Origin: Candidatus Microthrix parvicella Bio17-1
GTDB taxonomy: Bacteria; Actinomycetota; Acidimicrobiia; Acidimicrobiales; Microtrichaceae
Assembly (NCBI RefSeq): GCF_000299415.1
Contig: NZ_AMPG01000004.1
Coordinates: forward strand, 1-64,000
Length of the DNA stretch: 64,000 nucleotides
Direction: 5' to 3'
The notes beneath the pieces were generated by a model, which saw nothing but the letters and a program-made list of their open reading frames with translations, did not search any database and was not told where the DNA came from. Positions 15,312 to 26,743 of the stretch are shown in pieces (position 1 is the stretch's first letter; every line of letters starts with the position of its first letter). The position numbers and the translations under genes were made by a program.

Positions 15312-15692
15312 CTACAGCACGGCCTCCTGGCGTTCGCTGTCGACGACGGGCCGGTAGGCCCACGCCTCGATCTCCATCAGTGCGCCTGCCGGCAAGGCCG
15401 ACACGGCGACGGCCGAGCGGGCTGGACGGTGGGCTCCAAAGAAGGCGACGTAGTGCTCGTTGATCACCCCGTAATCGTCCATCGACACCATGAACACGGT
15501 GGTTTTCATCACATCGGTCGGCTTGAGTCCCGCCTCGGCCAGGCGAAGGCCCAGGTTGGCCAGGGCCGCATCGCACTGGGGGCCGAGGCCATCCACCATG
15601 ACGTTGTCCACCAGGCCGATCTGTCCGGAGGTCACCACCCACTCCCCCGCCTCAACCCACGGTGAATACGGCCCAATCGGATCTGCGCTCAT
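15312..15692 (-). CDS. RidA-family enamine/imine deaminase
   Basis: A 126-residue protein with the YjgF/YER057c/UK114 pattern: IGPYSPWVEAGEWVVTSGQIG, a middle LKPTDVMKTTVFMVSMDDYGVINEHY, and the C-terminal PARSAVAVSALPAGALMEIEAWA. Arg in the PARSAV segment is the expected substrate-carboxylate ligand of RidA. Family members form homotrimers and hydrolyse reactive 2-aminoacrylate and similar enamines released by PLP enzymes. It lies downstream of the ATP-grasp gene on the same strand, 41 bases away. The exact subgroup is not decided. Confidence 0.85.
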   Translation of the reverse strand: MSADPIGPYSPWVEAGEWVVTSGQIGLVDNVMVDGLGPQCDAALANLGLRLAEAGLKPTDVMKTTVFMVSMDDYGVINEHYVAFFGAHRPARSAVAVSALPAGALMEIEAWAYRPVVDSERQEAVL

Positions 15693-15733: not shown

Positions 15734-16747
15734 TCAAGGGTCAAGGGTCAGCAACAAGGCCGCCTCGTAGACCGACTCGGCACGCGCCCACCATTCCGAT
15801 GATTCCGCCGCCAGGCGTTCCAACATGACGCCCGAGTTGACCTCGAGCACTTCCCGCCCGGCACTGGAATCCACGATGTCGACCGAGCAGAACACCGCGC
15901 CCAGCTCAGCGGCGGCCCCAAGACCCAGAGCGGCCAGCGATTCGGCTTCCGGGCCCGGACGCACCAACACCGGCGAGGATCCGGCCCCCAGATTGTGACG
16001 AAGGCCAAGGTGGGTGACCTCTCCGGCGACGGGAACGTGGGCCAGCAACGTCGGATCGTGAGTATCGAGCCAGTCGCGCACAACGTCGGGCGTCACGTCG
16101 CCGGCCACCACCGACTGAGCCACCAATTCCACAACCGCCGATCGTCCATCACCAACCACGTTGGGGCGATCTTTGCGATAGATCAGCGGTGCTGCTCCGT
16201 CGACCACCACCACGCGATGCTCGGCGGTGACCTCACGCCAGGGGCCCACCGCAGCGCCACGGTGGCGGGCGAGGATGGCGGTCAGCGCAGACTCGGCGGC
16301 CGATCGTTCCGCGGCGCGTTGCACGTTGGCGCCACCGGTGCCATCGTTTGGTTTGACCACCAGGGGCCACCCGAAACGATCAATGATCTGGTCCAGGCGT
16401 TCGCCGACCGAGTTCTGGCCCACCCAGGACGCGAAGCTCGGCTCGATCACCAACTCGTGAGGAACCATCGGCAGGCCGACGCGACCGAGCAGATCTGCCG
16501 TGGCCACCTTGTCATCGCAGATCAGGGCAACCGCCGACGGGTTGGCGTCGAACGAGTAGCCGTACATGCCAACCCGGTGGCCCGCCCGGTCGGTCAGGCG
16601 CACCACCCAGTCGCCACCACCGGCCTGCATGCGCCAGCCGTGGGCATCGGCCAAACGGGCGCACATGTTGACCAGCGCCCGGCCCCCGTTGCGGGCGGGT
16701 GCGTCAGGCACGTGCACGCCCGCAGGCCCGTCCTGGTTGTGGGTCAT
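15734..16747 (-). CDS. ATP-grasp ligase, cyanophycin synthetase / RimK type
   Basis: A 337-residue ATP-grasp enzyme. Visible elements are ALICDDKVATADLLGRVGLPMVPHELV (substrate-adjacent helix), WPLVVKPNDGTGGANVQRA (ATP-grasp lysine and glycine loop), YRKDRPNVVGDGRSAVVELV (a motif shared with cyanophycin synthetase and GshF) and a terminal DIVDSS..VLEVNSGVML metal site. It would join a carboxylate to an amine or thiol through an acyl phosphate. The Mur-ligase half of cyanophycin synthetase is absent, so it is not a full CphA. Start MTHNQDGPAG is 7 bases past the end of the upstream fused redox gene. The substrate is unknown. Confidence 0.75.
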   Translation of the reverse strand: MTHNQDGPAGVHVPDAPARNGGRALVNMCARLADAHGWRMQAGGGDWVVRLTDRAGHRVGMYGYSFDANPSAVALICDDKVATADLLGRVGLPMVPHELVIEPSFASWVGQNSVGERLDQIIDRFGWPLVVKPNDGTGGANVQRAAERSAAESALTAILARHRGAAVGPWREVTAEHRVVVVDGAAPLIYRKDRPNVVGDGRSAVVELVAQSVVAGDVTPDVVRDWLDTHDPTLLAHVPVAGEVTHLGLRHNLGAGSSPVLVRPGPEAESLAALGLGAAAELGAVFCSVDIVDSSAGREVLEVNSGVMLERLAAESSEWWARAESVYEAALLLTLDP

Positions 16748-16754
16748 CTCCGCA

Positions 16755-18437
16755 TCATGGTCGGCACGTCCACGGGAGCGACCCAAGCGGCCAGGCAGGG
16801 GCCCATCCGCCCGCCGACCATGCGGCCGCCGCAGTCGCGGCAAAGACCGCGCCGCCGACTGGCACGGCTGGATCGGTTGCCACATCGTGGTCGATCGTGA
16901 CGGTCACCTGCGGCAGCTCCGAAGCCTTCAGAATGCCGAACGACCTGACGGTGAGATCCTGCGGGATCCCTTCGGCATCGACTGCCAGGCCCTCGGAGGC
17001 CACCCAGGACAACCCGGCGTGGACGGCACCGATGACGTACGAGCGCAGCACCACGGCGTCCAGTGGTGCGCCTGCCGAGACGGTGACATCGATGCCTTCG
17101 GGCCCGAAGGCCGTGATTCGGGCGCGGCCACCCTCGGGCCCGATGACGTTCACCTCGTCGGGCCGGGTTTCGGCGAGCGCCACTGCCAGCACCTGCGCCT
17201 CTGCCCATCCGGCGCCGCGCAACTCCGCCGAGGTGGGGGGCCCGAGAACGGGCACCACCTCGACGTCAACATCCGGCAGCACCGACACGATTCGTTCGAT
17301 CACCGGGGCGACGTCGGCCCCACCCGACCACCCGACCAGCACACGGCCACTGCCGTCGGCGCGCAGTCCCGCGGCGATGGGAGGCCGCTTGGCGCCGCGC
17401 CGCACCACGTCCTCCCGGCTGAACAGCACCCGCACCGGCTCTCCCAGGCGGTCGGCCCACTCGCGCGCCACCTTGGCGACGTCGTTCTCATCGGAGCCTT
17501 CAACCTTGCCGCCGAAGGCGCCGCCGTTGGCCAGCGGGGTGGCGGGTTCGCCGCCTGGCACGCACCACGAGGCATCGGTTTCCAGGTAGGCGGGCTCGAT
17601 CCACGAGGTCGCCAGGCGCACCGCCCAGTCGCCGTCGGGCACCTCCAACGGCGGCTCGGCCACGACGGTTGAACGCCGTCCCTGTACCTTGCCTGAGGCC
17701 ATCCGTGCCTCGGCCAGGGTGGCTGCCACCGTCCACCCGCCATCGCCGTCGGGGACGACCACCCGAGCACCTTCGGGCGCCGTGTCGGCGGCAAACCCAG
17801 CCGACCCGGCAACGACGGTTGCTCCAACGGACTGGGCACTTCCACCTTCGATGACGGCCCGGAACGAGGCCCTCGTGACGGCATCGGCGTCCCGATCGGG
17901 CGCCGTCAGTTCGCCGAGCCCCACCGCCGCCTCGGTGATGGTCTGCCAGCCCGTGCAGCGGCACAAGTGGGCCGCTAATGCCCGATGGACAACGGGTGCG
18001 GAGAGCCCGGGCGCCCCGGTCGGGCCCAGTGGGTCGGCCGGCTCGGGCGAAGCCTCCGAACCAGTCGCCACGGTGGTGGCCCGGTTGGCCGTTTTGATCG
18101 CCAGTCCCTCCAGGCGGCACACGATGCCAGGGGTACAAAACCCGCATTGGGAAGCCCCGGTGGCAAGAAAGGCCTCGGTCCACAGCCGACGCCGTTCGGG
18201 GTCAAGCCCGTCAAACGTGGTGATCCAGCGTCCGGCAAGGCGCCGCACCGGCGTCACGCAGGCCACCCTCGGGGCGCCGTCCACCAGCACGGTGCAACAA
18301 CCGCATTGGCCTTGAGGACTGCACCCGTCTTTGGCCGAGGTCACACCGGCGACGTCACGGAGTGCGTCCAACAACGTTGGAGTTCCTGCGGGAACCTCGA
18401 TTTCGCGTCCGTCGACGGTCAGCCTGACCAAACTCAC
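16755..18437 (-). CDS. Short fused [2Fe-2S] / molybdenum-hydroxylase-like protein
   Basis: A 560-residue protein. Residues 1-75 are a plant-type ferredoxin domain (Cys39, 45, 48 and 60). Residues 85-175 form the four-helix [2Fe-2S] domain (CGFC at 98-101, CRC at 159-161). The remainder is a compressed xanthine-dehydrogenase-like domain with GGAFGGK at 305-311. In known enzymes the Mo subunit alone is about 750 residues. Here the hammerhead domain and much of the Mo-binding region are missing, and the catalytic Glu motif near the C-terminus is not found. The GTG start is placed by homology, and erpA lies 34 bases upstream. Mo binding and activity are uncertain. Confidence 0.7.
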   Translation of the reverse strand: MSLVRLTVDGREIEVPAGTPTLLDALRDVAGVTSAKDGCSPQGQCGCCTVLVDGAPRVACVTPVRRLAGRWITTFDGLDPERRRLWTEAFLATGASQCGFCTPGIVCRLEGLAIKTANRATTVATGSEASPEPADPLGPTGAPGLSAPVVHRALAAHLCRCTGWQTITEAAVGLGELTAPDRDADAVTRASFRAVIEGGSAQSVGATVVAGSAGFAADTAPEGARVVVPDGDGGWTVAATLAEARMASGKVQGRRSTVVAEPPLEVPDGDWAVRLATSWIEPAYLETDASWCVPGGEPATPLANGGAFGGKVEGSDENDVAKVAREWADRLGEPVRVLFSREDVVRRGAKRPPIAAGLRADGSGRVLVGWSGGADVAPVIERIVSVLPDVDVEVVPVLGPPTSAELRGAGWAEAQVLAVALAETRPDEVNVIGPEGGRARITAFGPEGIDVTVSAGAPLDAVVLRSYVIGAVHAGLSWVASEGLAVDAEGIPQDLTVRSFGILKASELPQVTVTIDHDVATDPAVPVGGAVFAATAAAAWSAGGWAPAWPLGSLPWTCRP

Positions 18438-18471: not shown

Positions 18472-18789
18472 TCAGCTGAAGGACGAGCCGCAGCCGCAGG
18501 TGCGCTGCGCGTTGGGGTTGGTGATGGCGAAGCCGCTCTCCATGCCGTCCTTGTAATCAAGTGTGGCGCCGTCGAGCATCTCTGCAGAGGAGGGGTCGCT
18601 CACGACCTTGATCGAGCCGTAGGCCTTGGAGACATCCTCGGCGTCGGTCTCAGAGTCGAAGAACATCTCGTAGGAGAAGCCGGAACAGCCGCCGGGCCTG
18701 ACGGCCACGCGCAGGGCCAAACCGTCATCGCCCTCCGCCTCGATGAGCTGTTGAACCTTCTCGGCTGCGTTGTCGGTAAGCGTGATCAT
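18472..18789 (-). CDS. erpA: Iron-sulfur cluster insertion protein, ErpA/IscA family
   Basis: A 105-residue A-type carrier with the three conserved cysteines: GGCSGFSYEM near residue 35 and TCGCGSSFS at the C-terminus. These proteins carry [2Fe-2S] or [4Fe-4S] clusters to apo-targets. The next gene on the strand encodes a protein with two [2Fe-2S] domains, so a delivery relationship is plausible. Length and motif spacing are normal for the family. The 193 bases upstream, to the aldehyde dehydrogenase end, contain no gene that I can see. Confidence 0.93.
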   Translation of the reverse strand: MITLTDNAAEKVQQLIEAEGDDGLALRVAVRPGGCSGFSYEMFFDSETDAEDVSKAYGSIKVVSDPSSAEMLDGATLDYKDGMESGFAITNPNAQRTCGCGSSFS

Positions 18790-20547: not shown

Positions 20548-21228
20548 CTACGCGTCGATCGACACCTGTTCGGTTTGGGGGACGTCGAGCACGACACAGC
20601 AGGGTTGGCGGGCGGTTCGATCGTGAAAGTCGACGGGGACGTCATCACCGCGCGCCTCGAGCAGCCCTTCGATGAGGCCGCGGTGCAGCGAGCACACCAA
20701 CTCTGGGTTGGCCTCGGCCAGCTCGGAGAACGGGCAATGCCCGAACCAAATCCAGCTTGCATCGTCCTCGGCCGCCACGACTTCGGGGTCGAATCCCCAG
20801 TCGCTCAGCAGCGCCTTGGTGGCCTCCAGGGCGTCACCGTGCCGGCCCGACGCCAGCGTGCGTCCATGAGACCGACCGACCTCGGCGGCATCCTCGCCCG
20901 ACAGGCCCGCCTCGGATGCCAGCGCCAGCAGCATGCCCGCAATCGCCGGATACACCGGCGGTTCCAAACCCAGGCTGGGGGCGTCCGCGGCCAGGGAGTA
21001 CAGGTGCTGAGGACGGCCCACGCCACCGCTGGTTCGAGGTCGCACCTGCAACAATCCGAGCTCGCGCATGCGTTCCAGGTGGGGGCGCACCGTATTGGGG
21101 TGCAGATCGAGCAGCTTGGCCACGTCCGAGGTGGAGCGGGGTGACGGCGAACGCGCCAGCTCCAGATAGATGGCGTATCGGGTGTTGTCGCCGAGCGCTT
21201 TGAACATCGCCAATTGGTCGGACTTCAC
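20548..21228 (-). CDS. SufR-like iron-sulfur-sensing transcriptional regulator
   Basis: A 226-residue protein. An N-terminal winged helix (FKALGDNTRYAIYLELA, LHPNTVRPHLERMRELGLLQV) is followed by a ligand domain with cysteines in GHCPF, PELVCSLHRG and a C-terminal QPCCVV. The HCPFxxL..NPxxVCxLHRGxxxG block is the cluster-binding pattern of SufR, which represses the suf operon when it holds a [4Fe-4S] cluster. It is divergent from mrp, with only 39 bases between the start codons, so one operator could control both. The suf genes themselves are not in the window. A related sensor with another ligand is possible. Confidence 0.72.
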   Translation of the reverse strand: MKSDQLAMFKALGDNTRYAIYLELARSPSPRSTSDVAKLLDLHPNTVRPHLERMRELGLLQVRPRTSGGVGRPQHLYSLAADAPSLGLEPPVYPAIAGMLLALASEAGLSGEDAAEVGRSHGRTLASGRHGDALEATKALLSDWGFDPEVVAAEDDASWIWFGHCPFSELAEANPELVCSLHRGLIEGLLEARGDDVPVDFHDRTARQPCCVVLDVPQTEQVSIDA

Positions 21229-21267
21229 GACTCCAGTTTACACGGCCACCGCCAGTAGAATGTGGTC

Positions 21268-22653
21268 ATGGCGACTCCGGCCCCTCTCCCAGCGCCCTCC
21301 GAAGACGAGGTTATGGCCATGCTCACCCACGTGATCGACCCGGAGTTGGGGGCCGACATCGTTGAGCTCGGCATGGCGCGTGACGTGGTGGTCGCATCAC
21401 CGGAGCAGCTCCCCAAGCGGGTGTCACGCATCGTGTTGAGCCGCACCGACAGCGGGCCCGACCGGGGTTCGGGTGGCACGTCCGATGGTGCGGTGGTCGT
21501 GGTCACACTGGCGCTCACCACAGCCGGTTGTCCCCTTCGGGCGCAGCTGCGCAGGGACATCATCGAACGGGTCGGTTCGCTGCCCGGGGTCGCCGAGGTG
21601 CGCATCAACTGGGCGGAGATGACCCAGGACGAGAAGGCTGCCGCCATGGCCATCGCCCGCAAGCGGGCCGTCGAGCGGGCACCGGACGACCTGTTTGGCG
21701 AGCAGACCCGGGCCATCCTGGTGGCCTCGGGCAAGGGCGGTGTCGGCAAGTCGTCGGTGACCGCAAACCTGGCCGTCGCCCTGGCCGGACGAGGCTTCAC
21801 CGTCGGTGTGGTCGATGCGGACATCTGGGGGTTTTCCATTCCTCGGATGCTGGGCATCGATGGACGCCTCGAGGCCGCCGAGGATGCCGCACCCACCGGC
21901 GGCGACAACCACGACAGCGAGGTTTCCTCGTCCGCCAAGATCCGGCCACACGGCATTTCAATCCCCGGCATTTCCAGCCCCGGTGTGGGATCGTCGCCGG
22001 GCCGCATCGAGGCGGTCTCGATGGGGTTCCTGGTGGACGACGAATCGGTGGCCTTGATGTGGCGCGGGCTGATGTTGCAACGAGCCGTGCAGCACTTCTT
22101 GGAGGACGTCGCCTGGGGCGACCTGGACTACCTGCTGGTGGACCTGCCTCCAGGTACCGGCGATGTGCAGATGGGCCTGGCCCGACTGCTGCCTCGTGCC
22201 GAACTGCTCGTGGTGACCACCCCATCGGTGGCGGCAAGCAGGGTGGCCCGTCGGGCCGTGTCGATGGCTCGCAAGAACTATCTGCGCGTGATCGGAGTGG
22301 TGGAAAACCTGTCGCACTACGTGGCCCCCGACGGGTCGGTCCACGAGATCTTCGGGTCGGGTGGCGGCGACTATCTGGCCCACGAGGCAGGCGTCCCCCT
22401 CCTGGGGAAGATCCCCATCGAGCAGGCGGTGGCGACCGGCGGCGACGACGGCAAGCCCGTCGCGCTGCAACTCGGCGCCACCCGCCCGGGCTCCGGCAAC
22501 GACCCCGCAATCGGGGCGGGACCGGCAGCACTGGCGTTCGGTGCCCTGGCCCGGCTCATTGCCACCGAGGTGTCACCCCCCATCGAGATGACGAGCTGCA
22601 CCGCCCACATTGCCCAGCCCGTCCCCAGCGAGACCGCCGTTCAGATCGGCTGA
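21268..22653 (+). CDS. mrp: Mrp/ApbC-type P-loop Fe-S carrier
   Basis: A 461-residue protein. Residues 1-125 form a MIP18/DUF59-type domain (VIDPELGADIVELGM, TAGCPLRAQL). The Mrp/NBP35 ATPase follows, with a deviant Walker A (ILVASGKGGVGKSSVTANLAVAL) and VDADIWGFSIPRMLG. Later come YLLVDLPPGTGDVQMGL and RRAVSMARKNYLRVIGVVENLS. The CPxC motif of many family members is not apparent. It probably carries Fe-S clusters. A GTG at 21262 is an alternative start. Divergence from the SufR-like regulator supports the iron-sulfur role. A stretch near residues 205-240 (PTGGDNHDSEVSSS and onward) looks like a lineage-specific insertion. Confidence 0.88.
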   Translation: MATPAPLPAPSEDEVMAMLTHVIDPELGADIVELGMARDVVVASPEQLPKRVSRIVLSRTDSGPDRGSGGTSDGAVVVVTLALTTAGCPLRAQLRRDIIERVGSLPGVAEVRINWAEMTQDEKAAAMAIARKRAVERAPDDLFGEQTRAILVASGKGGVGKSSVTANLAVALAGRGFTVGVVDADIWGFSIPRMLGIDGRLEAAEDAAPTGGDNHDSEVSSSAKIRPHGISIPGISSPGVGSSPGRIEAVSMGFLVDDESVALMWRGLMLQRAVQHFLEDVAWGDLDYLLVDLPPGTGDVQMGLARLLPRAELLVVTTPSVAASRVARRAVSMARKNYLRVIGVVENLSHYVAPDGSVHEIFGSGGGDYLAHEAGVPLLGKIPIEQAVATGGDDGKPVALQLGATRPGSGNDPAIGAGPAALAFGALARLIATEVSPPIEMTSCTAHIAQPVPSETAVQIG

Positions 22654-23616: not shown

Positions 23617-24933
23617 GTGCATCCGCCCTCGATCGATCGCCTGGCCCGGGCCCATGCCGGCTCCGGGTTGCCCCACCCAACCCTGGTGGGGCTGGCCCGC
23701 CGGGTGGTGGCCGAGGTGCCCGCCGACCAGGTCGAGGGGGTCCTCGACTCGGCCGTCGCCAAGCGGGTGGCCCTTGAGGCCCGGGAGGTGATCAACGGCA
23801 CCGGCGTGTTGCTGCACACCAACCTTGGGCGGTCCCCGGTGTCGGCGTCGGGCAACGACCGATACACCAACCTGGAGTTCAGCCTGGCCGACGGTGGGCG
23901 CGGCCCCCGGGCTGCGGCGGTGACCGACCTGGCCACCATGCTCACCGGCGCCGAGGCCGCACTGGTGGTCAACAACTGCGCCGCGGCTGTCATGTTGGCG
24001 TTGGCCACGCTGGCCAACGAACGGGGCGTCATCGTCAGTCGCGGCGAACTGGTGGAGATCGGCGGGGGGTTTCGGGTTCCGGACGTGCTGGCCCAGTCGG
24101 GCGCCACGCTGGTGGAGGTGGGCACCACCAACCGAACCAACGTGGGCGACCTCGTCACGGCCCTAGAGCCCAACGGTGGTGCGGCCGATCCGCCGGTGGC
24201 CATGGTGCTCAAGGTTCATCAGTCCAACTACCGCATCATCGGCTTCACCGAATCGGTCTCGGTGGCCCAGGCGCGAGAGGCGGCGCCGGACGAGGTGGTG
24301 GTGATGGCCGATCTCGGCTCTGGTCTGCTGGACGCGCGGTGCCAATGGTTGGCCGGGGGGCCTCCATCCTGGCTGGGCGACGAGCCCGGGGTCGCCCAGG
24401 TCCTTGCGGACGGGGCCGATCTGGTGGCCGTGAGCGGCGACAAGCTGATGGGCGGGCCCCAGGCAGGGTTGCTGGTGGGCCGTGCCGACCTCGTGGATCG
24501 CTGCGCCCGCCACCCACTGATGCGGGCCGTTCGTTGCGGCGGCGGCACGCTGAGGATGCTCGAACGCACCCTCACGGCCTACGCCAACCGCGACCTGGAC
24601 GGATTGCCGTTCTGGTCCTTGGCCACCACCACCTGCGATGCCCTGCGGCAACGCGGAGCCTCGATCCTGACCCAACTCCCCAACGACCGGTCCGTCGAGA
24701 TGATCGACACGGTGGCCACCACCGGTGGCGGAACCCTGCCGGGCGCCGACATCGCGTCCGTCGGCCTGGCGCTACCGGGTGACCGCGTGGCCGCCTTGCG
24801 GGCGTCCGAGCCACCGGTGATCGCTCGGGCGGCCGAGGGAACCACCGTGATCGACCTGCGCACTGTTTTTTCCGACCAGGACGCTCCTGTTACGGCTGCG
24901 CTGGCCCGGCTGCTCGACCTCACGCGGGCATGA
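23617..24933 (+). CDS. selA: L-seryl-tRNA(Sec) selenium transferase
   Basis: A 438-residue PLP enzyme. Characteristic blocks are REVINGTGVLLHTNLGRSP, VVNNCAAAVMLAL, VSRGELVEIGGGFRVPDV, VEVGTTNRTNVGDL, KVHQSNYRIIGFTE, MADLGSGLLD and VAVSGDKLMGGPQAGLLVGR, where Lys carries PLP. It converts Ser-tRNA(Sec) to Sec-tRNA(Sec) using selenophosphate. The GTG start at 23617 is chosen because it gives the expected N-terminus, whereas the open frame extends further upstream without homology. It is followed by selB after a 49-base spacer holding a small ORF. selD and selC were not found in the window. Confidence 0.95.
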   Translation: MHPPSIDRLARAHAGSGLPHPTLVGLARRVVAEVPADQVEGVLDSAVAKRVALEAREVINGTGVLLHTNLGRSPVSASGNDRYTNLEFSLADGGRGPRAAAVTDLATMLTGAEAALVVNNCAAAVMLALATLANERGVIVSRGELVEIGGGFRVPDVLAQSGATLVEVGTTNRTNVGDLVTALEPNGGAADPPVAMVLKVHQSNYRIIGFTESVSVAQAREAAPDEVVVMADLGSGLLDARCQWLAGGPPSWLGDEPGVAQVLADGADLVAVSGDKLMGGPQAGLLVGRADLVDRCARHPLMRAVRCGGGTLRMLERTLTAYANRDLDGLPFWSLATTTCDALRQRGASILTQLPNDRSVEMIDTVATTGGGTLPGADIASVGLALPGDRVAALRASEPPVIARAAEGTTVIDLRTVFSDQDAPVTAALARLLDLTRA

Positions 24934-24986
24934 ACGCCGGCAACCGGACCACCACGGCCTCCGCCACAGGCCCGGACACACCATGA
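24930..24986 (+). other. Mini-ORF linking selA and selB
   Basis: ATG at 24930 overlaps the selA stop (ATGA). The frame runs MNAGNRTTTASATGPDTP and ends with a TGA at 24984-24986 that overlaps the ATG of selB (ATGA at 24983). An 18-codon ORF therefore bridges the two genes with a four-base overlap at each end. It may simply couple translation by re-initiation. No function is known, and chance is possible. Confidence 0.3.
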
Positions 24987-26743
24987 CGGTGCTCGGCACG
25001 GCAGGCCACGTCGACCACGGAAAGTCCACCCTGGTACGCGCCCTCACCGGCGTCGATCCAGACACGCTCGCCACCGAGCGGGAGCGCGGGCTGACGATCG
25101 ATCTGGGCTTCGCCGTGGCCCCGCTGCCATCGGGTCACCGGGTGCATCTGGTCGACGTTCCCGGCCACGTCAGGTTTCTGAAGAACATGCTGGCCGGCGC
25201 CGGCGCTGTGTCCGGGGCGATCTTCGTGGTCGATGCGCTGGAGGGCCCTCGGGCACAGAGCATCGAGCACTTGCGGCTCCTCGAACTACTCGGCGTGCAT
25301 GAAGGTGTGGTGGTCATCACGAAGGCCGACCTCGTCAGCGCCGACCGACTCGATGATGCAACCTTGGAAACCCTCGTGCTGCTCGAGGGCTCACCGCTCG
25401 CCGACGCCGACCCCATCGTCGTCGACTCGGTGTCGGGGCGGGGTCTGGACACGCTGCGCCAGGCCTTGGACACCCTCGTCGAGCGGATTGAGAAGGGCAA
25501 CCAGGCCGGCCGAGCCGGCGCCGGCCGAACCCGACTCTGGGTGGACCGGGCATTCACGGCCGCCGGGGCGGGCACCGTCGTCGCCGGGTCACTTACCGGG
25601 ACGGCACTCGAGGTGGGTGACACGATCGAGCTGCAACCCGGTGGAGGGACGGCACGCATCCGCGAGCTCCACTCCGATCATGCAGCGGTCGACCGGGCCG
25701 ATCCGGGTAACCGCTACGCCATGGCACTCAGCGGAGTTGCCCGCAGCCAGGTCGGACGCGGCATCGCGGTGGTGAGGCCCGATGACTGGTGGCCAACGAC
25801 CATGGTGGACGCTTCGGTCAGCGTGCTGGGCGACCTCGACCATGAGCTGTCCCGCCGCGGAGCCCACGTGCTGCACCTGGGCTCCGGCGAGTGGCCGGTA
25901 CGCGTGCGGGTGCTTGGCTCCGACGCAATCGAACCGGGTGACCAAGGGTTCCTTCGCCTCCACCTGCCTCGGCCGCTTCCGCTGGCACCCGGCGACCACT
26001 ACGTACTGCGTGAGAGTGGCCGTGGCGAGACGATGGGCGGCGGCACCATTTTGGAGGTGGACCCACAGCGGCGCGCAGCGGTGGCCCTCCCCAGCGCCGA
26101 TCCTCAACGGGTGATCTCCGACCGAGGCTGGGTGAGCTCCCGGGACTTTCGTCGACTGACCGGCTGCGACCGTGCACCCGACCTCGGCGACTGGCTGGTG
26201 GACATCGATGTCCGCGTGGAGGCCGAGCGTGCACTGGTTGCCCGGGTGGAGTCGGCAGGAGCCGTCGGGCTGGCGCTGGCCGAACTCTCCGGGCACGACC
26301 GGGTGTTGGCCGATTCGCTGGGCCGGAACGGCGACCACCTCGAAGTGCGTGACGATCGCCTGGTGCTCCCGGGCACCGTGCTGCATCACCCATGGCTCGA
26401 CGAGGTGGCGGCCGGGGGGTTCGATCCACCTCCCCCATCGGGCATCGACCCGGCTGCCCTGCGCAGCTGGGTGGCCGACGGACGACTCGTCAAGGTGGGC
26501 GAGGTGTGGTGGTCGGCCGAAGCGATCGGCGAGGCGGCCCGCCGCCTTGCCACCGAACTCTCCGCCCATCCAGACGGCATCACCGTGGCCGAGGTGCGCG
26601 ATGCGCTCGACAGCTCCCGCAAACCCACCCTGGCGCTGTTGGGCCTGTTCGACGAACGTGGCCTCACCCGACGACGTGACGATCTACGCATTCGTGGGCC
26701 CCGCCTCGACGCGGTTGCCAACGGGCACCCCATCAACACCTAA
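24983..26743 (+). CDS. selB: Selenocysteine-specific elongation factor
   Basis: A 586-residue translational GTPase. The G domain has GTAGHVDHGKSTLV (P-loop), RERGLTIDLGFA, DVPGHVRF and ITKAD. Domains II and III follow, then C-terminal winged helices (about residues 390-586) with PDGITVAEVRDALDSSRKPTLALLGLFDERGLTRR, which bind the SECIS RNA hairpin. It delivers Sec-tRNA(Sec) to UGA codons. The length is near that of other bacterial SelB proteins. Together with selA it indicates that this organism makes at least one selenoprotein, but no selenoprotein gene was identified in the window. Confidence 0.95.
   Translation: MTVLGTAGHVDHGKSTLVRALTGVDPDTLATERERGLTIDLGFAVAPLPSGHRVHLVDVPGHVRFLKNMLAGAGAVSGAIFVVDALEGPRAQSIEHLRLLELLGVHEGVVVITKADLVSADRLDDATLETLVLLEGSPLADADPIVVDSVSGRGLDTLRQALDTLVERIEKGNQAGRAGAGRTRLWVDRAFTAAGAGTVVAGSLTGTALEVGDTIELQPGGGTARIRELHSDHAAVDRADPGNRYAMALSGVARSQVGRGIAVVRPDDWWPTTMVDASVSVLGDLDHELSRRGAHVLHLGSGEWPVRVRVLGSDAIEPGDQGFLRLHLPRPLPLAPGDHYVLRESGRGETMGGGTILEVDPQRRAAVALPSADPQRVISDRGWVSSRDFRRLTGCDRAPDLGDWLVDIDVRVEAERALVARVESAGAVGLALAELSGHDRVLADSLGRNGDHLEVRDDRLVLPGTVLHHPWLDEVAAGGFDPPPPSGIDPAALRSWVADGRLVKVGEVWWSAEAIGEAARRLATELSAHPDGITVAEVRDALDSSRKPTLALLGLFDERGLTRRRDDLRIRGPRLDAVANGHPINT

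Follow-up and report, generated by a model that had tools for sequence, protein, structure and literature searches.

A conserved shortened relative of fused xanthine dehydrogenases in Acidimicrobiia that probably works without the molybdenum cofactor

The locus and its genes

The window, that is the whole stretch of 64,000 nucleotides analysed here (contig NZ_AMPG01000004.1 of Candidatus Microthrix parvicella Bio17-1, the genome of which comprises 4.2 Mb in 13 contigs), contains on the minus strand a coding sequence for a protein of 560 aa (16755..18437), with a GTG start at 18437 and a TGA stop codon at 16757-16755. The protein begins with a plant-type [2Fe-2S] domain (residues 1-73; 18219..18437, minus strand; Pfam Fer2/Fer2_4) that has Cys 39, 45, 48, and 60 as well as an extra Cys 47, followed by a second [2Fe-2S] domain (residues 74-171; 17925..18218, minus strand; Pfam Fer2_2) with Cys 98, 101, 159, and 161. 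The Pfam matches of both domains pass the cut-off (Fer2_4/Fer2 at residues 4-65, Fer2_2 at 74-171). The remainder, from about residue 190 to 560 (16758..17870, minus strand), is a shortened remnant of the molybdenum (Mo) domain, recognized by a colinear profile match to full-length relatives and by VIA matches. An earlier note on this DNA had described two complete [2Fe-2S] domains joined to a shortened Mo half, and the reading frame and Pfam agree with that description.

Regarding profile matches in the Mo half of the window protein, MoCoBD_1 (16.1 bits) and MoCoBD_2 (14.7 bits) both remain below the gathering score, which is 27. A hammerhead domain was not found by Pfam at E<=1. The cut-off of PF20256 was passed by two relatives, in genomes G023 (30.3 bits) and G003 (27.9 bits). 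The best NCBIfam match of the window protein was TIGR03311, the selenium-dependent xanthine dehydrogenase (XDH) type, covering positions 3-111 only; its 108.2 bits fall short of the 830.45 bits that this curated model, 848 positions long, requires.

The gene encoding an ErpA-like A-type Fe-S carrier (18472..18789, minus strand; PF01521) ends 34 bp upstream of the short coding sequence; this carrier passes TIGR00049 and scores 113.5 bits against the ErpA equivalog, slightly below the cut-off of 117. On the other side, a RimK-like ATP-grasp gene identified with Pfam and NCBIfam (15734..16747, minus strand; ATG at 16747) begins 7 bp past the stop codon of the short gene and is inserted between it and a RidA-family gene (15312..15692, minus strand; PF01042). 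A gene for an Mrp/NUBPL-type Fe-S carrier (21262..22653, plus strand; PF10609) lies divergently. Further genes noted in the window are an ArsR-type regulator (20548-21228, minus strand) with several C-terminal cysteines and a weak match to SufR (27 bits against a cut-off of 179), relatives of which occur in 16/100 loci, and putative SelA-like and SelB-like genes (~23700-26743, plus strand), named by eye, for which blast found relatives in 2/100 and 6/100 short-gene loci, respectively. One tRNA, tRNA-Pro, is present in the window.

Extent of the short family and selection

A single open frame of the short type was found in all of the 100 loci compared, the other proteins being 45-58% identical to the window protein. 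Dropping one duplicate left 99 distinct short proteins of 468-583 aa after trimming (median 522), one of which (L045) has its first 45 residues missing; because 80 of the 100 loci were taken as the best 80 of 520 relatives, this uniform length describes a selected sample. The search for proteins of the same length and fusion order that had been proposed for this locus was thus rewarded, with 99 distinct sequences sharing the short form.

In an evenly drawn set of 296 Acidimicrobiia genomes, the class to which the window belongs, the short gene was detected in at least 108 (E 3e-48 or better; counted by eye), a lower bound in which absence may be a miss, since only four first-look candidates were scored per genome. 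The next group of matches, starting at about 2e-37, consisted of small subunits of ordinary enzymes. Among 396 genomes of the phylum, a set that includes members of the class itself, 27 matches were obtained at E<=1e-60, all within the class; 26 were full length or nearly so, and one (G039) covered just the N-terminal portion of a full-length protein. Where close relatives come from named records, these mostly carry the label Acidimicrobiales or Acidimicrobiia. Among plasmids a single record matched, a Se-dependent XDH of Enterococcus faecalis, with 30% of the query covered.

The short gene is under purifying selection in both halves: dN/dS was 0.009-0.26 across both halves in five short-gene pairs, a sixth pair being saturated and giving no value. 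For the pair from genomes G129 and G138, amino-acid changes were few in both halves, with dN/dS of ~0.06 and ~0.10 (C-half ~0.10) at a saturated dS of ~2.4. The idea that truncation, mis-assembly or decay of an XDH gene produced the short form, for which length alone and the lack of the gene in many genomes of the class would speak, was rejected as extremely improbable, given these dN/dS values, the single open frame in 100/100 loci and the grouping of 31 short proteins in one clade (see below).

Kinship with fused xanthine dehydrogenases

Matches to TIGR03311 at E<=1e-40 were present in 191/247 genomes of the class, the cut-off was passed in 23, and many of the weaker matches were other XDH subunits. 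The full-length comparison set comprised 31 proteins of the same class (P0001, L119-L148) of 848-872 aa, which score 820-870 bits against TIGR03311. Profiles of the short and the full-length proteins align colinearly over 517 columns (E 1.5e-95). In a tree of the FeS region, which took in 25 of the 99 short sequences and six other short ones, these 31 short proteins formed one clade (99/92) and the 31 full-length proteins another (80/90), and under midpoint rooting both were set apart together from nine other small subunits (100/98). Profile match and tree support common descent of the short form with the TIGR03311 type, and a single origin of the short form fits the tree.

The two types have in common the FeS-FeS-Mo order in one chain, as in the fused XDH of the TIGR03311 type (Se_dep_XDH), the KDGCxPxGQCGxC motif of the first cluster domain, GGAFGGK and an HM...TxRSxG segment. 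They differ in length (848-872 aa versus a median of 522) and in that the full-length relatives keep all cofactor motifs and KGVGE (31/31). Because the short clade adjoins full-length fused proteins of the same class, the fusion is inherited, the shrinkage new. Of the new architecture by fusion and shortening that the earlier note had suggested, the shortening thus stands and is family-wide, while the fusion is shared with the full-length relatives, and the aldehyde oxidoreductase (AOR) of Desulfovibrio gigas is fused too.

Residues lost, kept and gained

Relative to P0001, the short protein lacks blocks at approximately residues 187-228, 236-244, 290-297, 304-331, 353-367, 371-390, 476-492, 551-596, 599-606, 618-649, and 656-746, although the borders of these blocks and the placement of residue 529 depend on the aligner, three alignments disagreeing over the central part of the Mo half. 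The deleted blocks take in most of GGQGVWDDR, the MGQG loop and TTGSRGT. Five motifs of the cofactor or active site, MGQG, GQ[IV][EH]G, KG[VM]GE, GG[QT]xx[FW], and GSR[GA]T, were each found in 0/99 short and 31/31 full-length proteins; the cofactor-site motifs of the xanthine oxidase family (GGQxxW, MGQG, GSRxT, GQxEG) are thus absent from the short family. In structures of the xanthine oxidase family the lost motifs contact the cofactor.

KGVGE is gone from the short proteins, and GQ-I/V-E-G has turned into RSYxIG, part of the segment RSYxIGAxH (residues 465-473; 17019..17045, minus strand) identified in the family alignment. In that alignment residue 529, a Gly in the window protein (16851..16853, minus strand), lies near the lost catalytic Glu; this alignment-dependent site is D in 91, E in 5, A in 2, and G in 1 (the window protein) of 99 sequences, and three proteins (L102, L103, L108) end in this region without the acid. 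The conserved catalytic Glu is Glu869 in D. gigas AOR (PMC4726530, PMC3877041) and Glu1261 in bovine xanthine oxidoreductase (XOR; PMC4726530), and it seems to have no counterpart in the short family.

All eight cluster cysteines are kept, in 98-99/99 short proteins for the first domain and 99/99 for the second, and binding of two [2Fe-2S] clusters, as in the xanthine oxidase family, is predicted from them. The Mo half retains GGAFGGK (residues 305-311; 17505..17525, minus strand), seen in the sequence and conserved in the family alignment as GGAFG-x-K, so that GGAFGGK is indeed kept and the catalytic-Glu motif KG[VM]GE lost, as had been read from the window sequence. A loop with R407 (98/99) and E413 (99/99) is the counterpart of RGFGxNQ (17199..17219, minus strand). 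In full-length enzymes GGAFG-x-K and this R/E loop sit at the cofactor. H473, E482 and T-x-R-S occur in 99/99 short proteins. Residues fixed in the short family and rare in full-length proteins include W164, W279, D288, W291, C292, E413, S466, and Y467, among others; W291-C292 (17561..17566, minus strand; W in 99/99 and C in 96/99 short proteins) is not fixed in the full-length relatives.

Predicted structure

The structure model of the window protein had a mean pLDDT of 90.0 and a pTM of 0.92. With VIA-align, 498 residues of the model were superposed on residues 1-906 of D. gigas AOR (1sij; Z 22.6, rmsd 3.2) and 500 residues on rat XOR 4yrw (Z 23.1), a tie with D. gigas AOR; residues ~181-560 match Mo subunits of XDH (VIA, Z ~17). 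The top Foldseek match was 1sij too (E 2.9e-19, TM 0.65 by query, rmsd 10.6 over a gapped alignment). The modelled protein thus keeps the fold and the domain order of the xanthine oxidase family.

D. gigas AOR (907 residues) resembles the short protein in fold and order over 498 residues, but it is a Mo enzyme with the catalytic Glu869 (PMC4726530, PMC3877041), whereas the short protein is without the motifs. PMC6487702 describes rat XOR 4yrw as free of the molybdenum cofactor (Moco) and aldehyde oxidase (AOX) as retaining its fold without Moco; in 4yrw and human AOX1 G1269R, as in the model of the short protein, the fold survives without the cofactor. However, 4yrw is a deletion construct and AOX1 G1269R an inactive natural variant, both of Mo enzymes, while the short protein represents a conserved family.

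Gene neighbourhood

The survey of neighbours covered 116 loci, 115 of which had at least 500 bp downstream. RidA, a candidate partner of the short protein, is the usual immediate downstream neighbour, located within 3 kb in 105/115 loci and within 100 bp in 89/115. An ErpA-like gene lies upstream on the same strand within 3 kb in 94/110 loci, though within 100 bp in just 25/110, and a fixed operon with the ErpA-like gene was rejected on these figures. Relatives of the Mrp/NUBPL-type carrier were found in 68/100 loci, a count made with short flanks in many. The gap between the ErpA-like and the short gene measured 500-1400 bp in 47 loci. An opposite-strand ORF whose product resembles a secreted thioredoxin-like protein or lipoprotein with CxxxxC was seen in this gap in five of six loci inspected (L003, L005, L006, L007, L009), and a relative of it adjoins the ErpA-like gene in 6/24 genomes without the short gene.

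These 24 genomes were chosen as apparently without the short gene, where absence can be a miss, and with one ErpA-like match each. The short gene was missing around the ErpA-like gene in all of them, whereas Mrp was present in 21 and RidA in 17, arranged as usual; in two (L184, L185) more than 1 kb lies between, and two others (L183, L202) are short contigs. No RidA gene was found beside the full-length relatives in 31/31 loci (~1.5 kb flanks). An old neighbourhood of Fe-S-related genes thus includes the short gene as a member that can be removed, and because the erpA-ridA order exists also where the short gene is absent, neighbours do not prove a pathway, although the arrangement is compatible with a role there. 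The earlier note had supposed one pathway with the ATP-grasp enzyme and ErpA. The ATP-grasp gene was dropped as a candidate since it adjoins the short gene solely in the window's own locus (1/100), and ErpA is an old neighbour, often not adjacent, which stays where the short gene is absent, so that the proposal is rejected for the ATP-grasp enzyme and not supported for ErpA.

Molybdenum cofactor pathway in carriers of the short gene

Among the 296 genomes of the class, MoaC was detected in 259 and MoaA (PF06463) in 243. MoaA was detected in 95 of the 108 genomes with the short gene and in none of the other 13 (by eye); conversely, the short gene was present in 95/243 MoaA-positive versus 13/53 MoaA-negative genomes (by eye), which shows no clear link between the short gene and Moco in this set. 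MoeA was absent in all six of the MoaA-negative short-gene genomes checked (G129, G138, G313, G060, G087, G126). These absences are not independent, because the MoaA, MoaC and MoeA genes lie within 3 kb of one another in genome G000 and one assembly gap could hide all of them.

The strongest cases are the congeneric species G129 and G138, with genomes 96-97% complete, which have the short gene, while MoaA, MoaC, and MoeA were undetected and TIGR03311-type matches at E<=1e-40 were lacking. MoaA, MoeA, and TIGR03311-type matches at E<=1e-40 were likewise undetected in G087 and G126. Some carrier species thus appear, from gene content, to be unable to make Moco. As a separate observation, G087 and G126 carry a MoaC match (E 1e-43 and 1e-44) although neither MoaA nor MoeA was detected; this MoaC-like protein may be left over or may have been put to a new use. 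Genome G060 was discounted as a Moco-less genome, since XDH-type matches are present though Moco genes were undetected and an assembly gap is likely; G313 is a weak case, with MoaC in its congeners G214 and G281.

Discussion

The computations show kinship with full-length enzymes, deletions, retention of the cluster ligands, purifying selection and carriers in which no Moco pathway was detected. On this basis we favour, at a probability of roughly 0.6, the reading that the short protein is a Moco-free two-cluster electron-transfer protein descended from a fused molybdenum hydroxylase of the TIGR03311 type. By our own estimate it is very probable that the protein holds no Moco and, given that, fairly likely that it functions as a relay. 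The suggestion of the earlier note, perhaps an electron-transfer or non-Mo enzyme, accordingly remains the best reading, with five motifs in 0/99 proteins and eight cluster cysteines kept. The ancestor would have been a fused molybdenum hydroxylase of the selenium-dependent XDH type that lost ~300-350 residues inside its Mo half, a loss that would have taken away most cofactor-holding loops and the catalytic Glu and left the core scaffold and both [2Fe-2S] domains. Both clusters would be assembled, to judge from the cysteines, and would relay single electrons between a putative donor and acceptor, with the remodelled former Mo half possibly serving as a docking surface. Some ligand may sit at the former Mo site, because GGAFG-x-K and the R/E loop are still conserved.

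The chief alternative is that the protein is itself a redox enzyme, in which the remodelled Mo pocket (GGAFG-x-K, R407/E413, W291-C292) would bind another ligand or substrate and the clusters would carry electrons. The retained loops, the residues that the short family alone has fixed (W279, W291, C292, D288, E413, S466, Y467) and purifying selection on the C-half are consistent with such an enzyme, but Pfam and NCBIfam revealed no known cofactor motif in the C-half, and position 529 varies, with the acid lost from the window protein as well as from L102, L103, and L108; we regard this explanation as unlikely. The same remaining loops, GGAFGGK and the R/E loop, together with the MoaA genes of most carriers (95/108, by eye), which count against a Moco-free relay, would suit a protein that has remained a molybdenum enzyme by way of a minimal cofactor site. 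With five motifs lost in 99/99 proteins and the gene kept in G129 and G138, where MoaA, MoaC, and MoeA were undetected, a minimal Mo site has little probability.

Two further explanations take up the neighbouring genes. Instead of carrying electrons, the protein might carry Fe-S clusters for the adjoining ErpA-like and Mrp-like proteins or help in their maturation. This would agree with the ErpA-like gene within 3 kb upstream in 94/110 loci and the Mrp relatives in 68/100, but genomes that lack the short gene have the same neighbours side by side, and the cluster domains appear to be of the stable XDH type with full Cys sets, not of the labile carrier type, so that such a helper seems quite improbable. 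It is also improbable, if conceivable, that the protein, free of Moco, donates electrons from its two clusters to Fe-S assembly on ErpA-like or Mrp-like carriers, as anamorsin's counterpart in bacteria, and that it would have arisen by one conversion event and outlived the Moco pathway in some lineages. We raise it because of the neighbourhood and the analogy with anamorsin/NUBP1: human anamorsin has two [2Fe-2S] clusters and acts with NUBP1, as described in PMC10108433, and would be like the short protein in having two such clusters on an enzyme-like scaffold with an Mrp/NUBPL-type protein as partner or nearby. The comparison concerns how the proteins may work, and no kinship is claimed.

Among the titles listed by searches of the open-access literature, none describes the short family, although a description may still be in print. 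A molybdenum cofactor is the defining feature of the xanthine oxidase family. If the Moco-free relay reading is true, a selected and widespread branch of it, in carriers described as soil and water bacteria, dropped the cofactor site yet kept the scaffold and the iron-sulfur domains, and annotations that name such proteins XDH-like enzymes would need correction. The short family would then offer a natural test of the two-cluster module without its catalytic centre, and would illustrate the conversion of a large metalloenzyme to another use.
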